Shown: piece after piece, positions 29,061 through 44,872 of the stretch
Layout of the letters: every line of letters begins with the position of its first letter
Position numbering within the stretch: position 1 is the stretch's first letter
Assembly: GCF_000367345.1 (NCBI RefSeq)
Contig: NZ_BARE01000007.1
Location: forward strand, 124,001 to 188,000
From: Sphingobium xenophagum NBRC 107872
GTDB taxonomy: Bacteria; Pseudomonadota; Alphaproteobacteria; Sphingomonadales; Sphingomonadaceae
Direction of reading: 5' to 3'
Length of the DNA stretch: 64,000 bases
The notes under the pieces: generated by a model
Database searches by the model: none
What the model was told of the DNA's origin: nothing
Seen by the model: the letters and a program-made list of their open reading frames with translations, nothing else
Made by a program: the position numbers and the translations under genes

Positions 29061-29969
29061 CTACTCGACCCAGTCCAGCCCGATGTCGCGATATATGCCG
29101 CGGTCATTTTCCCAGTCTTCCTTGACCTTGACGTGCAGATAGAGGTGTACCTTCACCCCCAGCAGCCTGGCCAGTTCCTCGCGCGCCTTTGACCCGATTT
29201 CCTTCAACCGCTGCCCGCCCTTGCCCAGCACGATGGCGCGCTGCGTCGGGCGTGCGACCAGGATTTGCTGGTGGATTTCGACCGATCCGTCCTGCCGTTC
29301 CTTATATTGTTCGGTATCGACAGCGGCGGCATAGGGCAGTTCGGCATGGAGCTGGTGATAGAGCTGCTCGCGGGTGATTTCCGCCGCCAGCATCCGGTCG
29401 GTGGCGTCCGACACCTGATCTTCGGGGAAATGCCATGGTCCTTGCGGCATGGCGGCGGCAAAGGCGGCCTTGAGTTCGGGCAGGCCATCGCCGGTTGCGG
29501 CGGATACGAAGAAGATTTCGTCGAAACCCAGCGTGTCGTTCAGCACCTGCGTATGGGTCAGCAGCTTTTCCTTGATGGCGATGTCCACCTTGTTGAGGAT
29601 CAGCCATTTGCGTTCGGTGCGATGCTTGAGCGCTTCGATGATGGGTTCAAGCTTCGGGCCACGCCCCGCCTTGCCGTCCACCACCATCGCGATCAGATCC
29701 GCGCCCTGCGCGCCGCCCCAGGCCGCCTGAACCATGGCGCGGTCCAGCCGCCGCCTGGGCGCGAAAATGCCGGGCGTGTCCACCAGCACCAGCTGCGCAT
29801 CGCCCTCGATCGCGACGCCCATGACACGGGTGCGCGTCGTCTGCGCCTTGGCGCTGGTGATCGCCACCTTCTGCCCCACCAGCGCGTTGACCAGCGTGGA
29901 CTTGCCCGCATTGGGCGCGCCGACAATGGCAATGACGCCGCAGCGCTGATTGGTTTCTGAAACTTCCAA
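29061..29969 (-). CDS. era: GTPase Era
   Basis: 302-residue ribosome-assembly GTPase that binds 16S rRNA near its 3' end. The G1 loop is IVGAPNAGKSTLVNALVG, G3 DTPGIFAPRR, G4 LNKVDI and G5 SAATGD. The C-terminal KH domain shows RAIVLGKGGQRLKEIGSKAREEL. Length fits Era. The start is TTG 29969 with GGAG six bases upstream; the RBS lies in GGGCGAACGGAG, which resembles the edge of the type A repeats. It is downstream of rnc and lepB on the same strand, a common lepB-rnc-era order, here split by a type B repeat. Confidence 0.96.
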   Translation of the reverse strand: MEVSETNQRCGVIAIVGAPNAGKSTLVNALVGQKVAITSAKAQTTRTRVMGVAIEGDAQLVLVDTPGIFAPRRRLDRAMVQAAWGGAQGADLIAMVVDGKAGRGPKLEPIIEALKHRTERKWLILNKVDIAIKEKLLTHTQVLNDTLGFDEIFFVSAATGDGLPELKAAFAAAMPQGPWHFPEDQVSDATDRMLAAEITREQLYHQLHAELPYAAAVDTEQYKERQDGSVEIHQQILVARPTQRAIVLGKGGQRLKEIGSKAREELARLLGVKVHLYLHVKVKEDWENDRGIYRDIGLDWVE

Positions 29970-35618: not shown

Positions 35619-37034
35619 TCACCCGATCCAATAGGGGACGATCTGGCGATTGTCCGGGTCGACATGGATCGGCCGGTCGGCGGGCGGAAAGGCGCGCTGG
35701 TCGCAACTCTGGCGCGAACAGAGACGGCAGGTGATGCCGATGGGCGTCGCCGCGCCCTCATCCTCCAGTCGCAGTCCGTCGGCATAGACGAAATTCGCGG
35801 CATGGGCGGTCTCGCACCCCAGCACCACGGCAAAGCGGCGCGGCGTGCGGCTGTAGCTGCCCGATGGCTTTACCAGTCCCTTCGCCATCGACACATAGCG
35901 CACGCCATCAGGCGTTTCGCCCAGTTGCACGTTGATCCGGTCGGGGATGGCGACGGCTTCATGCACGTTCCACAACGGACAGGCGCCGCCGAAACGGGCG
36001 AATTGCAGCCGGGTGGCGCTGTGGCGCTTGGTGATGTTGCCGGCCATGTCGACGCGGCAGAAAAAGAAGGGGATGCCGCGAAGGCCGGGGCGTTGCAGCG
36101 TGGACAGGCGGTGGCACGCCTGCTCGAAACTCACGCCAAAGGTGCGGGCTAGACGGTCGATGTCGTGGCGCATCACCCGCGCCGCCTCCCGAAACGGCGC
36201 ATAGGGCAACAGCAGCGCGCCAGCGGCATAATTGCCAAGGCCGATCGCCAGCAACCGATCAGCCCCGGCCACCGGCAGCGCGGCCTTGGCCACGACATCG
36301 GCGATGACGGCCTGCCCCTCCAGCATCATCAACTGGTGCGCGAGCATGAATTTGCGGCTCTCGGTCGGCAGCGCCGCGTTGATGAACAGGCGTCGGTCCG
36401 GCGCGCTATAGGATCGCAGCGCGCTGTCGGGCGTATCGGCGATCAGCGTTTCGATACCGTGCCGCCGAGCCAGCGCTTCGACCAGCATGCCCTCGTCCAG
36501 CGCCTGCCCGGCGGTAAAGCTGGCGGCCATATCCTCGGCCAGACAGTCGAGAGAGTGGACATAATTGCCCGCCTCATGAAACCAGTCGCGCGCCGCCTCC
36601 CATGGCAGGCGCGCCTGCACCGTGCTGTCGTTCGCGATCGCCTCCTCGATCATGTTGATGCGTTCATTGGCGCGGATATGGGCGTTGTAGAGATCGAGGT
36701 AACGCGCTGCGAATTCAGGAAATTGCAGGTGCAGTTTCTCGATCCGCTCCGGCTCCAGCGCGACGCCGGGCAGTTCGGGATGGCTGAGCGCGAAGGTGAA
36801 CGCGCCCAGCATCTGCTCATCCTCGCGCGCATCGAAACTCGCCCAGTCGGTCGGGAAGGCATTGGCGAGCGCCGCCTTGACCTTGGCGGTCAGTGGGCGA
36901 TCGTCATTTTCCATCTGGGACAGATAGGACACGGATATGCCCAACGCCTGCGCCATCGTCGCCTGGTCCATGCGGTGGTCAAGGCGCAACTGGCGCAGCC
37001 TTGGTCCTGCAAAGATACGGTTGCCGCGTGCCAC
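35619..37034 (-). CDS. Short-chain fatty acyl transcriptional regulator (ScfR/RamB/PrpR-like XRE family)
   Basis: 471-residue regulator with an N-terminal XRE helix-turn-helix (about residues 10-65: QATMAQALGISVSYLSQMEN), a central IrrE/ImmA-like region and a C-terminal cysteine-containing domain (CPLWNVHEAV, CRLCSRQSCDQRAF). In the metalloprotease-like region the usual HExxH is replaced by HQLMM (KFMLAHQLMMLEGQ), so zinc peptidase activity is unlikely. Relatives control acetate, propionate or glyoxylate pathways in response to acyl-CoA. It is divergent from pccB and should control the methylmalonyl-CoA operon. GTG 37034 has AGGGGG at optimal distance; upstream in-frame codons do not. Confidence 0.9.
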   Translation of the reverse strand: MARGNRIFAGPRLRQLRLDHRMDQATMAQALGISVSYLSQMENDDRPLTAKVKAALANAFPTDWASFDAREDEQMLGAFTFALSHPELPGVALEPERIEKLHLQFPEFAARYLDLYNAHIRANERINMIEEAIANDSTVQARLPWEAARDWFHEAGNYVHSLDCLAEDMAASFTAGQALDEGMLVEALARRHGIETLIADTPDSALRSYSAPDRRLFINAALPTESRKFMLAHQLMMLEGQAVIADVVAKAALPVAGADRLLAIGLGNYAAGALLLPYAPFREAARVMRHDIDRLARTFGVSFEQACHRLSTLQRPGLRGIPFFFCRVDMAGNITKRHSATRLQFARFGGACPLWNVHEAVAIPDRINVQLGETPDGVRYVSMAKGLVKPSGSYSRTPRRFAVVLGCETAHAANFVYADGLRLEDEGAATPIGITCRLCSRQSCDQRAFPPADRPIHVDPDNRQIVPYWIG

Positions 37035-37080
37035 TATACACCCCCTGCACAAACCCATAGACTGGATTTGCCCATCCCTA

Positions 37081-37136
37081 ATTTGCGAAGTCGTGATTTG
37101 CAAATTAGCAAATTTACATTTGCGAAAAATCGCAAT
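37081..37136. promoter_or_regulatory. Putative operator cluster of the ScfR/RamB-like regulator
   Basis: In the 149-bp divergent spacer, TTTGCGAA (37082-37089), TTTGCAAA (37097-37104), TTAGCAAA (37105-37112) and TTTGCGAAA (37119-37127) lie close together in an AT-rich patch. RamB-type regulators bind AACTTTGCAAA-like sequences, so these boxes are strong candidates for autoregulation and control of pccB. Confidence 0.6.
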
Positions 37137-37183
37137 CGCGGGAAAAGGGCGTCACAACAGGTCCGCACCCTGACCGGAGAGAT

Positions 37184-38722
37184 ATGCCTATGTCGAAGCT
37201 CGCCATTATCGAACAGCTTGAAGCCAAGCGCGAAGGCGCGCGCATGGGCGGCGGCCAGCGCCGCATCGACGCGCAGCATGGCAAGGGCAAGCTGACGGCG
37301 CGCGAGCGGATTGAGGTGTTGCTGGACGAAGGCAGCTTTGAAGAGCTCGACATGTATGTCGAACATAATTGCACCGATTTCGGCATGAATGAGGCGCATA
37401 TCCCCGGCGACGGCGTGGTCACCGGGTCTGGCACCATCAATGGCCGTCTGGTGTTCCTGTTCAGCCAGGATTTCACGGTTTACGGCGGCGCGGTGTCCGA
37501 ACGGCACGCGATGAAGATCTGCAAGATCATGGACATGGCGCTGAAGGTCGGCGCGCCGGTCATTGGCCTCAATGACAGCGGCGGTGCGCGGATTCAGGAA
37601 GGCGTGGCGTCGCTGGCGGGCTATGCGGAGATTTTCCAGCGCAATGTGCTGGCGTCGGGCGTGGTGCCGCAGATCAGCGTCATCATGGGGCCATGCGCGG
37701 GCGGGGCGGTCTATTCGCCTGCCATGACCGACTTCATCTTCATGGTGAAGGATTCAAGCTTCATGTTCGTAACCGGCCCCGACGTGGTCAAGACGGTGAC
37801 GAACGAGGTCGTGACGCAGGAAGAACTGGGCGGCGCGGTGACGCACACGACCAAGTCGGGCGTTGCGGACGTGGCGTTTGAAAATGACCTCGAAGCGCTG
37901 CTGGCGGTGCGCGATTTCGTGGACTTCCTGCCCGCGTCGAACAAGGAGCCGGTGCCGGAGCGTCCGAGCGCGGACCCGTGGGACCGGATCGAACCGAGCC
38001 TCGACACGCTGATCCCCGCCAATGCGAATCAGCCCTATGACATGCACGAACTCATCCGCAAGATCGTGGATGAAGGCGACTTCTTCGAAGTGCAACCGGC
38101 GCACGCAGGCAATATCATCTGCGGCTTTGGTCGTGTCGAAGGACGCACGATCGGCATCGTCGCCAACCAGCCCTTCGTGCTGGCGGGCGTGCTGGACATC
38201 AATTCGTCGAAGAAGGCGGGGCGCTTCGTGCGCTTCTGCGATGCGTTCGACATTCCGATCGTGACTTTGGTGGACGTGCCAGGCTTCCTGCCGGGCACGG
38301 CGCAGGAACATAATGGCATCATCAAGCATGGCGCCAAACTGCTGTTTGCCTATGCCGAAGCGACGGTGCCCAAGATCACCATCATCACCCGCAAGGCCTA
38401 TGGCGGCGCTTACGACGTCATGGCGTCCAAGCATCTGCGCGGCGACCTGAACTATGCCTGGCCGACCGCCGAAATCGCGGTGATGGGGGCCAAGGGCGCG
38501 GTCGAGATCATCTTCCGCGGCAAGACAGCGGACGAGATCGCCGAGCGCACCGCGGAATATGAAGCGCGCTTCGCCAACCCGTTCGTGGCCGCATCAAAGG
38601 GCTTCATCGACGAGGTGATCCAGCCACACTCGACCCGCAAGCGGATCGCGCTGGGCCTGCGGAAACTGCGCAACAAGGCGCTGGAAAATCCGTGGAAGAA
38701 GCATGACAATATTCCGCTTTAA
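37184..38722 (+). CDS. pccB: Propionyl-CoA carboxylase beta chain (carboxyltransferase)
   Basis: About 510-residue carboxyltransferase subunit transferring CO2 from carboxybiotin to propionyl-CoA. Family blocks are [72 protein letters not shown] and [16 protein letters not shown]. Two close ATGs (37184 and 37190) follow GGAGAGA, and the second may be the true start. First gene of the operon pccB-mce-mutase-bioB-pccA, divergent from its presumed regulator. Substrate choice of propionyl-CoA over acetyl-CoA is inferred from the methylmalonyl-CoA genes that follow. Confidence 0.95.
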
Positions 38723-38730
38723 CTGACACC

Positions 38731-38818
38731 GTCATTCCCGCGCAGGCGGGAACCCATCTCCCACCCCATCGTCAGGCGCGCGGGCCGGAGATGGATACCC
38801 GCCTTCGCGGGGATGACG
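38731..38818. repeat. Nested inverted repeat (type B) between pccB and mce
   Basis: Outer arms GTCATTCCCGCGCAGGCGGG and its near-complement ending GCGGGGATGAC, inner arms CCATCTCC / GGAGATGG. It lies inside the operon, 19 bases before the mce start codon. Confidence 0.8.
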
Positions 38819-38837
38819 AAGTTGAGGATTGTAAGAC

Positions 38838-39275
38838 ATGAAACTCGGCCGTCTCAACCATATCGGCGTCGCCACGCCCAGCCTGGAAAAGAGCATCGCT
38901 TATTATCGCGATGTGATGGGCGCGACTAAGATCCATGAACCGTTCGACCTGCCTGCGCAGGGGGTGAAGGTGTGTTTTGTCGATACGCCGGGCGAAAATG
39001 GGACGGCGGGGACGCAGATCGAGTTGATCGAGCCGTTCGATGAAAGCTCGCCGATCACCGCCTTCATCGCCAAGAACCCGGCCGGGGGGCAGCATCATAT
39101 GTGCTACGAAGTGCCCGACATTCTCGAAGCGAAGGCCTGGTTCGAGGCGAAGGGTGCGCGGGTGCTGGGCGAACCGCGCATCGGGGCGCATGGCACGCTG
39201 ATCTTCTTCGTGCATCCCAAGGATATGAACGGCGTTCTGACCGAGATCATGGAGACGCCGAAAGAAGCGCATTGA
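38838..39275 (+). CDS. mce: Methylmalonyl-CoA epimerase
   Basis: 145-residue glyoxalase-fold metalloenzyme converting (S)- to (R)-methylmalonyl-CoA. It has the opening block LNHIGVATPSLEKSIAYYRD with the first metal histidine, then GGQHHMCYEVPDI, GARVLGEPRIGAHGTLIFFVHPKD and the final glutamate region GVLTEIME. Length fits the family. The upstream spacer is a type B repeat and the downstream spacer holds two hairpins before the mutase gene. Second step of the propionyl-CoA route. Confidence 0.95.
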   Translation: MKLGRLNHIGVATPSLEKSIAYYRDVMGATKIHEPFDLPAQGVKVCFVDTPGENGTAGTQIELIEPFDESSPITAFIAKNPAGGQHHMCYEVPDILEAKAWFEAKGARVLGEPRIGAHGTLIFFVHPKDMNGVLTEIMETPKEAH

Positions 39276-39279
39276 TATG

Positions 39280-39372
39280 GTGAGGGCCAGCGACGCGCAA
39301 GGCCCTCACCACTGCGACTAAGGCCCGCTGTGCGGACCTAAGTCTCGTTGCCTCTCCCGCTTGCGGGAGAGG
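39280..39372. repeat. Two perfect hairpins between mce and the mutase gene
   Basis: GTGAGGGCC (39280-39288) pairs with GGCCCTCAC (39301-39309), and CCTCTCCCGC (39351-39360) pairs with GCGGGAGAGG (39363-39372) across a 2-base loop. Neither has a T-run, so they may stabilise or process the mRNA rather than terminate it. Confidence 0.7.
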
Positions 39373-39391
39373 GGTAGAGTAAGGGTAGAAG

Positions 39392-41545
<2,154 letters not shown>

Positions 41546-41669: not shown

Positions 41670-42677
41670 ATGAACGTCATGACCACCGCCCGCACCGACT
41701 GGACCCGCGCCGAAATCGCCGCGCTGTTCGATCTGCCCTTTAACGACCTGATGTTCGAGGCGCAGTCGGTCCATCGCGCGAATTTCCCGCGCAACGAAGT
41801 GCAGCTTTCCACCCTGCTGTCGATCAAGACCGGCGGCTGCCCGGAAGATTGCGGCTATTGCAACCAGTCGGCGTCGGCGGAGAGCGGCCTCAAGGCCGAG
41901 AAGCTGATGAGCGTGCAGGCGGTCATGCAGGCCGCGGCGCAGGCGAAGGATGCGGGCAGTTCCCGCTTCTGCATGGGCGCGGCGTGGCGCAACCCCAAGG
42001 AGCGGGACATGCCCGCCATCGTCGAGATGGTGAAGGGCGTGCGCCAGATGGGCATGGAAACCTGCATGACGCTGGGCATGCTGAGCGAAAGCCAGGCCAA
42101 GGTGCTGGCCGACGCTGGCCTCGATTATTATAACCATAATATCGACACCTCACCCGAACATTATGAGAAGGTGATTACCACCCGGACCTTCGACGACCGG
42201 CTCGAAACGCTCGAAAATGTGCGCAATTCGGGGATCAACGTCTGTTCCGGCGGGATCGTGGGCATGGGCGAGACGCGCGAGGACCGCGTCGGCTTCCTCC
42301 ACGCCCTGGCCGTGCTGCCGGTTCACCCGCAGAGCGTACCGATCAACGCGCTGGTGCCGGTCAAGGGCACCGTGCTGGGCAATATGCTGGCCGACACCCC
42401 GCTCGCCAAGATCGACGAGATCGAGTTTGTGCGGACGGTTGCCGTCGCGCGGATCGTGATGCCGGAAAGCATGGTGCGCCTGTCGGCGGGGCGCGAGAGC
42501 ATGTCGGATGCATGTCAGGCGCTCTGCTTCATGGCGGGTGCCAACAGCATCTTCACTGGCGACAAGCTGCTGACCACCGCCAATGCGGGCGACAACGCTG
42601 ATGCGGCGCTGTTCGCGAAGCTGGGCGTCGTGCCGATGCAGGCCGAGGTAAAGGTTGAGCTGGAGGCGGCTGAATAG
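41670..42677 (+). CDS. bioB: Biotin synthase
   Basis: 335-residue radical SAM enzyme that inserts sulfur into dethiobiotin. The radical SAM cluster motif is in [15 protein letters not shown]. Further blocks are [32 protein letters not shown] and the [2Fe-2S]-site arginine region RLSAGRESM. Placement inside the propionyl-CoA carboxylase operon makes sense because the carboxylase needs biotin; the rest of the bio operon is not here. Its ribosome binding site GGAGG is supplied by the end of the preceding repeat element. Confidence 0.97.
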
Positions 42678-42871: not shown

Positions 42872-44872
42872 ATGGCAATCACCAAGATCCTGATCGCGAA
42901 CCGTGGCGAAATTGCGTGTCGTGTTATGCGTACGGCCAAGAAAATGGGCATCAAGACCGTCGCGGTCTATTCCGATGCCGACGCGCGCGCGCCGCATGTG
43001 CTGATGGCGGACGAGGCCGTACATATCGGCCCGTCGCCCGCCGCCCAATCCTATCTGATCGCCGACAAGATCATCGCGGCCTGCAAGCAGACGGGCGCCG
43101 ACGCGGTCCATCCCGGCTACGGCTTCCTGTCCGAACGCGAAAGCTTCCGCAACGCGCTGGACGCGGAGGGCATCATCTTCGTTGGCCCGCCCGCCAATGC
43201 CATCGCGGCGATGGGCGACAAGATCGAGTCCAAGAAGCTGGCGCTGGAAGCGGGCGTCAATGTCGTGCCCGGCTTCGTCGGCGTCATCGACGATACCGAA
43301 CATGCCGTCAAAATCTCCAATGAGATCGGCTATCCGGTGATGATGAAGGCGTCGGCTGGCGGCGGCGGCAAGGGGATGCGCCTCGCTTATTCCGAACAGG
43401 ATGTTCGCGAAGGCTTTGAAGCGACCAAGCGCGAAGGGCTTGCCAGCTTCGGCGACGATCGCGTGTTCATCGAAAAGTTCATCGAAAGCCCGCGCCATAT
43501 CGAAATTCAGGTGCTGGGCGACCAGCATGGCAACATCGTTTATTTGAACGAACGCGAATGTTCGATCCAGCGCCGCCACCAGAAGGTGGTCGAGGAAGCG
43601 CCGTCGCCCTTCGTCAGCCCCGAAATGCGCCGCAAGATGGGCGAGCAGTGCGTCGCTCTGGCCCGCGCAGTCGGCTATTTCAGCGCAGGCACGGTCGAAC
43701 TGATCGTGTCGGGCGAGGACAAGACCGGGGACGGTTTCTACTTCCTGGAAATGAACACCCGGCTTCAGGTCGAGCATCCGGTGACGGAGGAAATCACCGG
43801 CGTCGATCTGGTCGAACAGATGATCCGCGTCGCCAATGGCGAGAAGCTGGCCTTCACGCAGGACGATGTGAAGATCAACGGCTGGGCGGTCGAAAACCGC
43901 GTCTATGCCGAAGATCCCTATCGTGGCTTCCTGCCGTCCACGGGTCGCCTGATCCGCTACAATCCGCCCGAAACCGGCGCGGATGAAAGCGGCGCGCTGA
44001 TCCGCGTCGATGACGGCGTGGAGGAGGGGGGCGAGGTCTCCATGTTCTACGATCCGATGATCGCCAAGCTGATCACCTGGGCGCCCACGCGCCTGGAAGC
44101 GATCGACAAGCAGATCGAGGCGCTCGACAAGTTCGAGATTGAGGGGCCGGGGCATAATATCGATTTCGTGTCCGCGCTGATGCAGCATGAACGGTTCCGG
44201 TCGGGCAACATCACCACCGGCTTCATTGCGGAGGAATATCCTGACGGGTTCCAGGGCGCGCCCGCCTCGCCCGAACTGCTGGTGCGCCTGTCCGCCATCG
44301 GTGCCTTCGCGGCGATGGCGCAGGCCGACCGGGCGCGTCGGATCGACGGCCAGCTGGGCAAGCGCCTCAGCCCCCCGACCGGCTGGCAGGTCAAGATCGG
44401 CGACGCGACCCATGACGTCGAAATTGACGGCGACGAAGTGACCGTGGATGGCGTCAGCATCGACATGGCGCTGGAATATACGCCGGGCGATCGCCTGATC
44501 GAGGCGGAGTTTGGCGACGAGCAACTGGCCGTCCGCATTGCGCCCGTCCGCTCCGGCTTCGTGCTGACATGCCACGGGGCCAGCCACAAGCTGCGCATCC
44601 TGCCCGCCCATGCTGCACGCTATGCTGCGCACATGATCGAGAAGATCCCGCCGGATCTCTCGCGTTACCTGATCTGCCCGATGCCCGGCCTGCTGGTCGC
44701 ACTGCATGTCGGCGAAGGCGACAAGGTCGAGGCAGGGCAGCCGCTGGCCGTGATCGAGGCGATGAAGATGGAAAATATCCTGCGCGCGCAGAAAGCGGGC
44801 GTGGTCAAGAGCGTGTCGGCGGCGCAGGGCGACAGCCTGGCCGTCGATGCCATCATCCTCGAAATGGAATAG
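42872..44872 (+). CDS. pccA: Propionyl-CoA (acetyl-CoA) carboxylase alpha chain, biotin carboxylase with BCCP
   Basis: 666-residue subunit combining an ATP-dependent biotin carboxylase and the biotin carrier domain. It has KILIANRGEIACRVMRTAKK at the N-terminus, the ATP-grasp loop KASAGGGGKGMRLAYSE, IQRRHQKVVEEAPSPF, EMNTRLQVEHPVTEEITG and the biotin-accepting lysine in VIEAMKMENILRAQ near the C-terminus. A middle linker of about 150 residues (the BT-like domain) fits propionyl-CoA carboxylases. Last gene of the methylmalonyl-CoA operon; a clear terminator follows. Confidence 0.96.
   Translation: MAITKILIANRGEIACRVMRTAKKMGIKTVAVYSDADARAPHVLMADEAVHIGPSPAAQSYLIADKIIAACKQTGADAVHPGYGFLSERESFRNALDAEGIIFVGPPANAIAAMGDKIESKKLALEAGVNVVPGFVGVIDDTEHAVKISNEIGYPVMMKASAGGGGKGMRLAYSEQDVREGFEATKREGLASFGDDRVFIEKFIESPRHIEIQVLGDQHGNIVYLNERECSIQRRHQKVVEEAPSPFVSPEMRRKMGEQCVALARAVGYFSAGTVELIVSGEDKTGDGFYFLEMNTRLQVEHPVTEEITGVDLVEQMIRVANGEKLAFTQDDVKINGWAVENRVYAEDPYRGFLPSTGRLIRYNPPETGADESGALIRVDDGVEEGGEVSMFYDPMIAKLITWAPTRLEAIDKQIEALDKFEIEGPGHNIDFVSALMQHERFRSGNITTGFIAEEYPDGFQGAPASPELLVRLSAIGAFAAMAQADRARRIDGQLGKRLSPPTGWQVKIGDATHDVEIDGDEVTVDGVSIDMALEYTPGDRLIEAEFGDEQLAVRIAPVRSGFVLTCHGASHKLRILPAHAARYAAHMIEKIPPDLSRYLICPMPGLLVALHVGEGDKVEAGQPLAVIEAMKMENILRAQKAGVVKSVSAAQGDSLAVDAIILEME

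Follow-up and report, generated by a model that had tools for sequence, protein, structure and literature searches.

The spacer between pccR and pccB in the window, the 64-kb stretch of Sphingobium xenophagum DNA that was analysed here, carries a cluster of four related 8-bp boxes which is genuine and not a product of chance. We consider it probable that this cluster is the operator of PccR and that PccR activates the pccB operon and, in Sphingobium, sucC, while limiting its own synthesis. This reading draws on what was observed of the boxes (their sequence, conservation, spacing and rarity in the genome) and of the regulator (the family it belongs to and the conservation of its pocket and iron-sulphur cluster residues). 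PccR control of pccB is already known from R. sphaeroides; new are the three-box model for the whole order, the lower standing of the fourth box and the sucC site.

Allowing at most one mismatch from TTTGCAAA, we found four 8-mers in the spacer, starting at positions 37082, 37097, 37105 and 37119. On the forward strand, box 1 (37082 to 37089) and box 4 (37119 to 37126) both read TTTGCGAA, box 2 (37097 to 37104) reads TTTGCAAA and box 3 (37105 to 37112), which abuts box 2, reads TTAGCAAA. Boxes 3 and 4 are joined by a link (37113 to 37118, forward strand) that reads TTTACA in the window and most commonly TTCACA among relatives, and a weak and unconserved fifth word, AATCGCAA, follows on the same strand at 37128 to 37135. 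The 64-kb window holds 13 such 8-mers in total, and outside the cluster no two of them lie within 56 bp. GC content is 0.35 at 37080 to 37139 compared with 0.43 to 0.58 in adjoining and overlapping 60-bp segments. When the 149-bp spacer was shuffled with its dinucleotides kept, three or more boxes within 56 bp were reached in 0 of 20,000 shuffles. The four-box cluster in the AT-rich patch of the spacer, as described in the original prediction, is confirmed. An AT-rich patch in a GC-rich spacer does raise the rate of chance matches, and the words might on that account be accidental, or else sites of a general DNA-bending protein. We regard this as extremely unlikely: shuffling the 65-bp patch alone, again with dinucleotides kept, yielded three boxes in 12 of 20,000 cases and four in none, and both the letters and the spacing of the boxes are conserved across the order.

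This conservation was determined by footprinting. Screening of 80 relative loci and 32 further genomes of the family, the latter chosen by a PccR match of E 1e-120 or lower, provided 107 spacers, window included; some genomes are counted twice in this number because the two sets share contigs. Of the 107 spacers, 103 match 17 or more of the 24 letters of boxes 1 to 3 at starts 0/15/23. This conservation is partly by choice, since the best score on these three boxes decided where the block was placed; box 4 and the link played no part in placement. None of 2,140 shuffles, which preserved composition and not dinucleotides, reached 17 of 24 (best 16). One of the four low-scoring spacers, L107, is cut off, and its twin G130 scores 20. 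The original prediction had staked itself on conservation of the boxes in relatives where the divergent gene pair is retained, and it withstood this test at fixed spacing.

For comparison by rows, identical rows were merged, the four rows below 17 of 24 were omitted and G028 was unused, leaving 97 rows. These were divided into a near group of 49 rows (the window and 49 of the loci L031 to L083, with titles that are mostly, though not all, Sphingobium) and 48 other rows. The block reads TTTGCgAA-N7-TTTGCAAA-TT.GCAAA-TTt.CA-TTTGCGaA in the near group and TTTGCAAA-N7-TTcGCAA.-TtcGCAA.-TTcACA-TTtGc in the others. Box 1 keeps at least six of the eight letters of TTTGCAAA in 49/49 near-group and 47/48 other rows, box 2 is kept in 49/49 and 44/48, and box 3 in 46/49 and 37/48. 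Box 4 is far less general within the order, occurring as TTTGCRAA in 35/49 near-group rows and in 0/48 others (43/49 and 14/48 at the laxer threshold of six of eight letters), where its place is taken by TTTGC (29 rows) or TTGGAC (15 rows); the view of four equal boxes is therefore not supported. The link is TTCACA in 36 and TTTACA in 14 of the 97 rows, its terminal CA being among the best-kept columns. At six of eight letters, the fifth word AATCGCAA is kept in 5/49 near-group rows and 1/48 others, and the 17-bp two-word form of PrpR/MccR at 37119 to 37135, of which it is the second word, is thus not a conserved feature of the spacer. Near-invariant columns coincide with the boxes and the link and the remaining spacer is variable. 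The footprint does not support an operator common to the whole order that includes words four and five. Box 4 may have been gained near Sphingobium or else lost in other lineages; three loci outside the order (L282, L283 and L287) have a TTTGCG word past their boxes.

The regulator gene itself, pccR (35619 to 37034, reverse strand; GTG start taken from alignment with relatives), encodes an ScfR-family protein with HTH (PF01381/PF13560), IrrE-like M78 (PF06114) and ScfR C-terminal (PF09856) domains, all scoring over their cut-offs. The ScfR-type regulator that had been placed beside the boxes is therefore there with all three domains of its family, and it is the best candidate to bind them. Its nearest named relatives belong to Sphingobium sp. 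nzgw535 and AS12 (both 99%). The RamB-type label that it had been given was rejected, as its product reaches 403.9 bits with the RamB model (NF038139, an NCBIfam equivalog) against a curated cut-off of 700. Aligned to M. tuberculosis PrpR structures, the protein has W145 at the place of PrpR Phe155. A tryptophan at this place and four iron-sulphur cysteines aligned to PrpR (C-X2-C-X4-C and a further Cys, [4Fe4S]) are found in 80 of 80 relative loci. The available text of PMC6765138 states that R. sphaeroides PccR carries Trp at this place and that PrpR with Trp or Tyr at Phe155 retains its propionate response. As expected for PccR, the gene lies beside and divergent from pccB, both in the window and in 74 of 80 relative loci. 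Considering the ScfR domains, the Trp and Cys residues, the RamB score below cut-off and the pcc genes that follow pccB, the regulator is best read as PccR and not RamB. We further observed a 2OG-Fe dioxygenase gene (PF10014; 34844 to 35563, reverse strand) directly behind pccR, which is near pccR in 24 of 80 relative loci.

Carter and Alber reportedly described in 2015 that PccR regulates propionyl-CoA carboxylase in Rhodobacter (Cereibacter) sphaeroides, where the pccB operator motif is said to be TTTGCAAA-X4-TTTGCAAA. The core word of this layout is present in the window, whereas the spacing is not: instead of two boxes with N4 we found three boxes at 0/15/23, that is, N7 and abutting, which counts against a PccR operator. 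Outside the family, 14 of 190 genomes of the class gave a match at E 1e-95 or better (16 with the window's own genome and G174), and three loci outside the order, L282, L283 and L289, have a divergent pccB in the sequence covered. Box spacings vary among them. L282 has boxes 12 bp apart, equivalent to N4, while L283 (box starts 0/8/22) and L289 (weak words only) show neither spacing; in L287, with no pccB in the sequence covered, box starts are 0/15/30. The core word thus persists outside the order at other spacings, and the N4 layout belongs to R. sphaeroides and is not taken as defining the PccR family.

The R. sphaeroides PccR work is cited in the available text of PMC12632250, PMC10370305, PMC9195938 and PMC6895838. 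Shared with that system are an ScfR regulator at pccB, the core word TTTGCAAA and, going by the accessible part of PMC6765138, Trp in the acyl-CoA pocket; differences are the presence of bioB in the operon and a likely second target, sucC, in Sphingobium. Similarities to M. tuberculosis PrpR include the family, the [4Fe4S] cysteines, acyl-CoA sensing and the words TTTGCAAA and TTTGCGAA, whereas PrpR is described as acting on methylcitrate-cycle genes, with a 17-bp site suggested to consist of two words separated by 1 bp, and with Phe in place of Trp (available part of PMC6765138). RamB of Paracoccus denitrificans (class 2) is likewise an ScfR-family activator with paired binding boxes. It differs in that it is linked to the glyoxylate-cycle operon, uses two boxes with an 18-bp spacer and senses intermediates of the ethylmalonyl-CoA pathway, as given in the accessible text of PMC10370305.

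On the forward strand, pccB, the propionyl-CoA carboxylase carboxyltransferase subunit gene (37184 to 38722, with an alternative in-frame ATG at 37190), is followed by genes for methylmalonyl-CoA epimerase (38838 to 39275; TIGR03081 over cut-off) and methylmalonyl-CoA mutase (39392 to 41545; NF006944 over cut-off), by the biotin synthase gene bioB (41670 to 42677; TIGR00433 over cut-off) and by pccA for the biotin carboxylase/carrier subunit (42872 to 44872; PCC_BT and biotin carboxylase domains). Intergenic gaps from pccB to pccA measure 115 to 194 bp in the window, so that a single transcript is likely. By eye, the gaps at 38723 to 38837 and 39276 to 39391 contain short GC-rich inverted repeats resembling dispersed repeats. 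Among the 58 relative loci in which pccA was found, bioB is part of the run in 50 and absent from it in 8, the latter being a point against the proposed reading. According to the available part of PMC6895838, Novosphingobium tardaugens grown on testosterone upregulates its pcc genes together with the cluster's biotin synthase. The pcc region of Rhizorhabdus wittichii MPO218, from the same bacterial family, has the gene set pccB, epimerase, mutase and pccA; the accessible text of PMC9195938 names the biotin gene bioC, treats pccR as hypothetical, leaves the operator undescribed and does not contain the word TTTGC. Control of pccR itself and of the whole operon by one regulator, as originally proposed, would fit both the geometry of the locus and published PccR work.

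In the proposed mechanism, PccR would be an acyl-CoA-sensing ScfR (IsaR) regulator whose HTH domains contact boxes 1 to 3 (37082 to 37112), with the protein probably binding as a tetramer, as known for M. tuberculosis PrpR. Standing immediately upstream of the pccB promoter, propionyl-CoA-bound PccR would activate pccB, the epimerase and mutase genes, bioB and pccA. As the boxes would also cover the candidate -35 element and spacer of the pccR promoter, its own synthesis would be limited at the same time. Binding, ligand, activation and autorepression are what we infer for PccR from these features. On the reverse strand, TAGGGA at 37075 to 37080, adjoining box 1, is a candidate -10 of pccR, and TTGCAA inside box 2 (37098 to 37103), 17 bp from it, a candidate -35. 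The distance from box 1 to the pccR start codon is 13 or 14 bp in 37 of 75 rows, and in these nTA adjoins the box. Together with the TTGCAA of box 2, at a distance of 17 bp, a -10 of the form TAnnnn would make up the core promoter of pccR, with the transcript beginning at or beside the start codon. In the window (47 bp) and in L031, L032 and L079 (121 bp), additional DNA separates box 1 from the start codon; in 17 of 75 rows the codon at the place of the first pccR codon of the window is none of ATG, GTG, TTG and CTG, so that the pccR start is tentative there. Should the core-promoter reading hold, PccR bound to boxes 1 and 2 would cover its own promoter and sit just upstream of that of pccB. 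The place of box 4 may also, or instead, be the -35 of pccB, since TTGGAC resembles a -35 hexamer. Consensus promoter and terminator scans of the pccR-pccB spacer returned nothing, and a likely pccB -10 could not be named, which counts against the proposed mechanism.

There is a different account, in which boxes 1 and 2 serve pccR autorepression, the remainder is the pccB promoter and the pcc operon merely shares the spacer without being activated. The overlap of boxes 1 and 2 with the candidate pccR core promoter and the -35-like TTGGAC at the box 4 place in 15 of 48 rows would agree with it. We nevertheless find this account quite improbable. Box 3 is kept in most rows of both groups, sucC keeps the same box plan without a divergent regulator gene, and published PccR work describes activation of pccB (as cited in the available text of PMC10370305 and PMC12632250). 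In favour of the proposed mechanism, the accessible part of PMC10370305 reports that deletion of pccR in R. capsulatus impairs growth on propionate. Of the six loci where no divergent pccB was found, L076, L077, L102 and L103 have little or no upstream sequence left, while in L080 and L082 a form of the box block still precedes pccR, which fits autoregulation. The gene that takes the place of pccB before pccR in L080 and L082 has thiolase-like first residues, as judged by eye.

We searched the whole genome (4,486,420 bases, 138 contigs) for a TTTGCRAA-N0-25-TTTGCRAA pair and found two places, compared with 0 in the reversed control. The second, which the original prediction had not foreseen, is at positions 29144 to 29183 of contig C102 (L118:9145-9184), between 77 and 116 bp upstream of the first codon of sucC, the succinate-CoA ligase beta subunit gene, which in this genome is followed by two electron-transfer-flavoprotein-like genes. 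An abutting pair without mismatch is found in the genome at the pcc spacer and the sucC site only. The sucC layout is TTTGCAAT-TTTGCAAA-N5-TTTGCGAA, an abutting pair and a single box, with the single box on the side of the gene. Of the 37 genus genomes, 35 carry this triple box (30 loci and G006, G007, G017, G021 and G032); G028 and G034 are without it, and G034 is also without any ScfR match. G020 seemed to carry both sites and no PccR, which is put down to an assembly gap because its contig ends about 41 bp past the block. In an alignment of 34 distinct rows, conservation is much higher in the boxes than in the flanking DNA, and in most rows they are directly followed by a promoter-like pair (about TCTGGC, 17 bp, GCTTTA/GCTTAG; by eye), an arrangement that would suit an activator.

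Outside the genus, the sucC site was found in 1 of 31 PccR-bearing and 0 of 28 PccR-negative genomes examined, the latter being the best sucC matches downward among 74 PccR-negative genomes with sucC; G118 was left out of this set as its contig starts at sucC. With 1 of 31 PccR-bearing genomes of other genera, the idea that sucC boxes track PccR across the family was rejected, and the simplest reading of this distribution is that the site was gained within Sphingobium. Abutting pairs with up to two mismatches gave 33 matches in the genome and 19 in the reversed control. Besides pcc and sucC, all four one-mismatch places lie inside open reading frames, and no third target is claimed. Among the matches listed in the literature searched on PccR, Sphingobium and the pathway, there was no report of a link between PccR and sucC. 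In Sphingobium, PccR at the triple-box operator would probably raise sucC expression and thus succinyl-CoA ligase, draining the product of the pathway. We lean towards the reading that the Sphingobium PccR regulon grew from the pcc operon to sucC via a near-invariant triple-box operator, such that one propionyl-CoA sensor tunes the route from propionyl-CoA to succinate.

The main binder at pcc or sucC might instead be another ScfR paralogue (linked to acnA, to isocitrate lyase, or near a GGDEF gene), with PccR in a secondary role. There are four ScfR genes in this genome, and their HTH domains and recognition helices are related. One of them (L115:8447-9964, contig C123), RamB-like at 610 bits against the cut-off of 700, lies directly downstream of acnA, and the spacer before it contains TTCGCAAA and TTTGCGAA; it may share the boxes, given these words. 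M. tuberculosis PrpR and RamB offer a precedent, as they share TTTGC(A/G)AA and cross-regulate icl1 (available part of PMC6765138). We still judge a paralogue unlikely to be the main binder. Matches that rank with the acnA-linked regulator were seen in 2 of 37 genus genomes, too few to explain a sucC site present in 35 of 37. No TTTGC(A/G)AA or TTYGCAAA word was found in the 18 kb surrounding the GGDEF-linked gene, and the 19 kb surrounding the isocitrate-lyase-linked gene contain a single one, at a distance of about 3 kb. The block adjoins pccR even where pccB was not found. PccR is thus inferred to be the best candidate for acting at sucC. An argument from PccR as the sole ScfR in G017 and G032 was dropped once a search for the family had revealed a further ScfR in both. 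Separately, we noted that the ScfR gene divergent from an isocitrate-lyase-family gene is itself preceded by different repeats, TTTACAA and TTGTAAAG (L117:8600-8680, contig C108), as though every ScfR used a separate operator word. In G029, one of the two genus genomes with an acnA-linked ScfR, TTTGCAAACTTTGCGAA at positions 119964 to 119980 of contig C24, the contig that also carries this gene, has the 17-bp form suggested for PrpR of M. tuberculosis.

In conclusion, the label of the regulator is corrected from RamB to PccR, and the order-wide operator model TTTGCAAA-N7-TTYGCAAN-TTNGCAAN-TTCACATT is usable for finding PccR sites. If the proposed extension to sucC is true, a TCA-cycle enzyme, succinyl-CoA ligase, would be under predicted propionyl-CoA control in Sphingobium, and tuning by PccR would reach a step of the TCA cycle in a genus that degrades many compounds.
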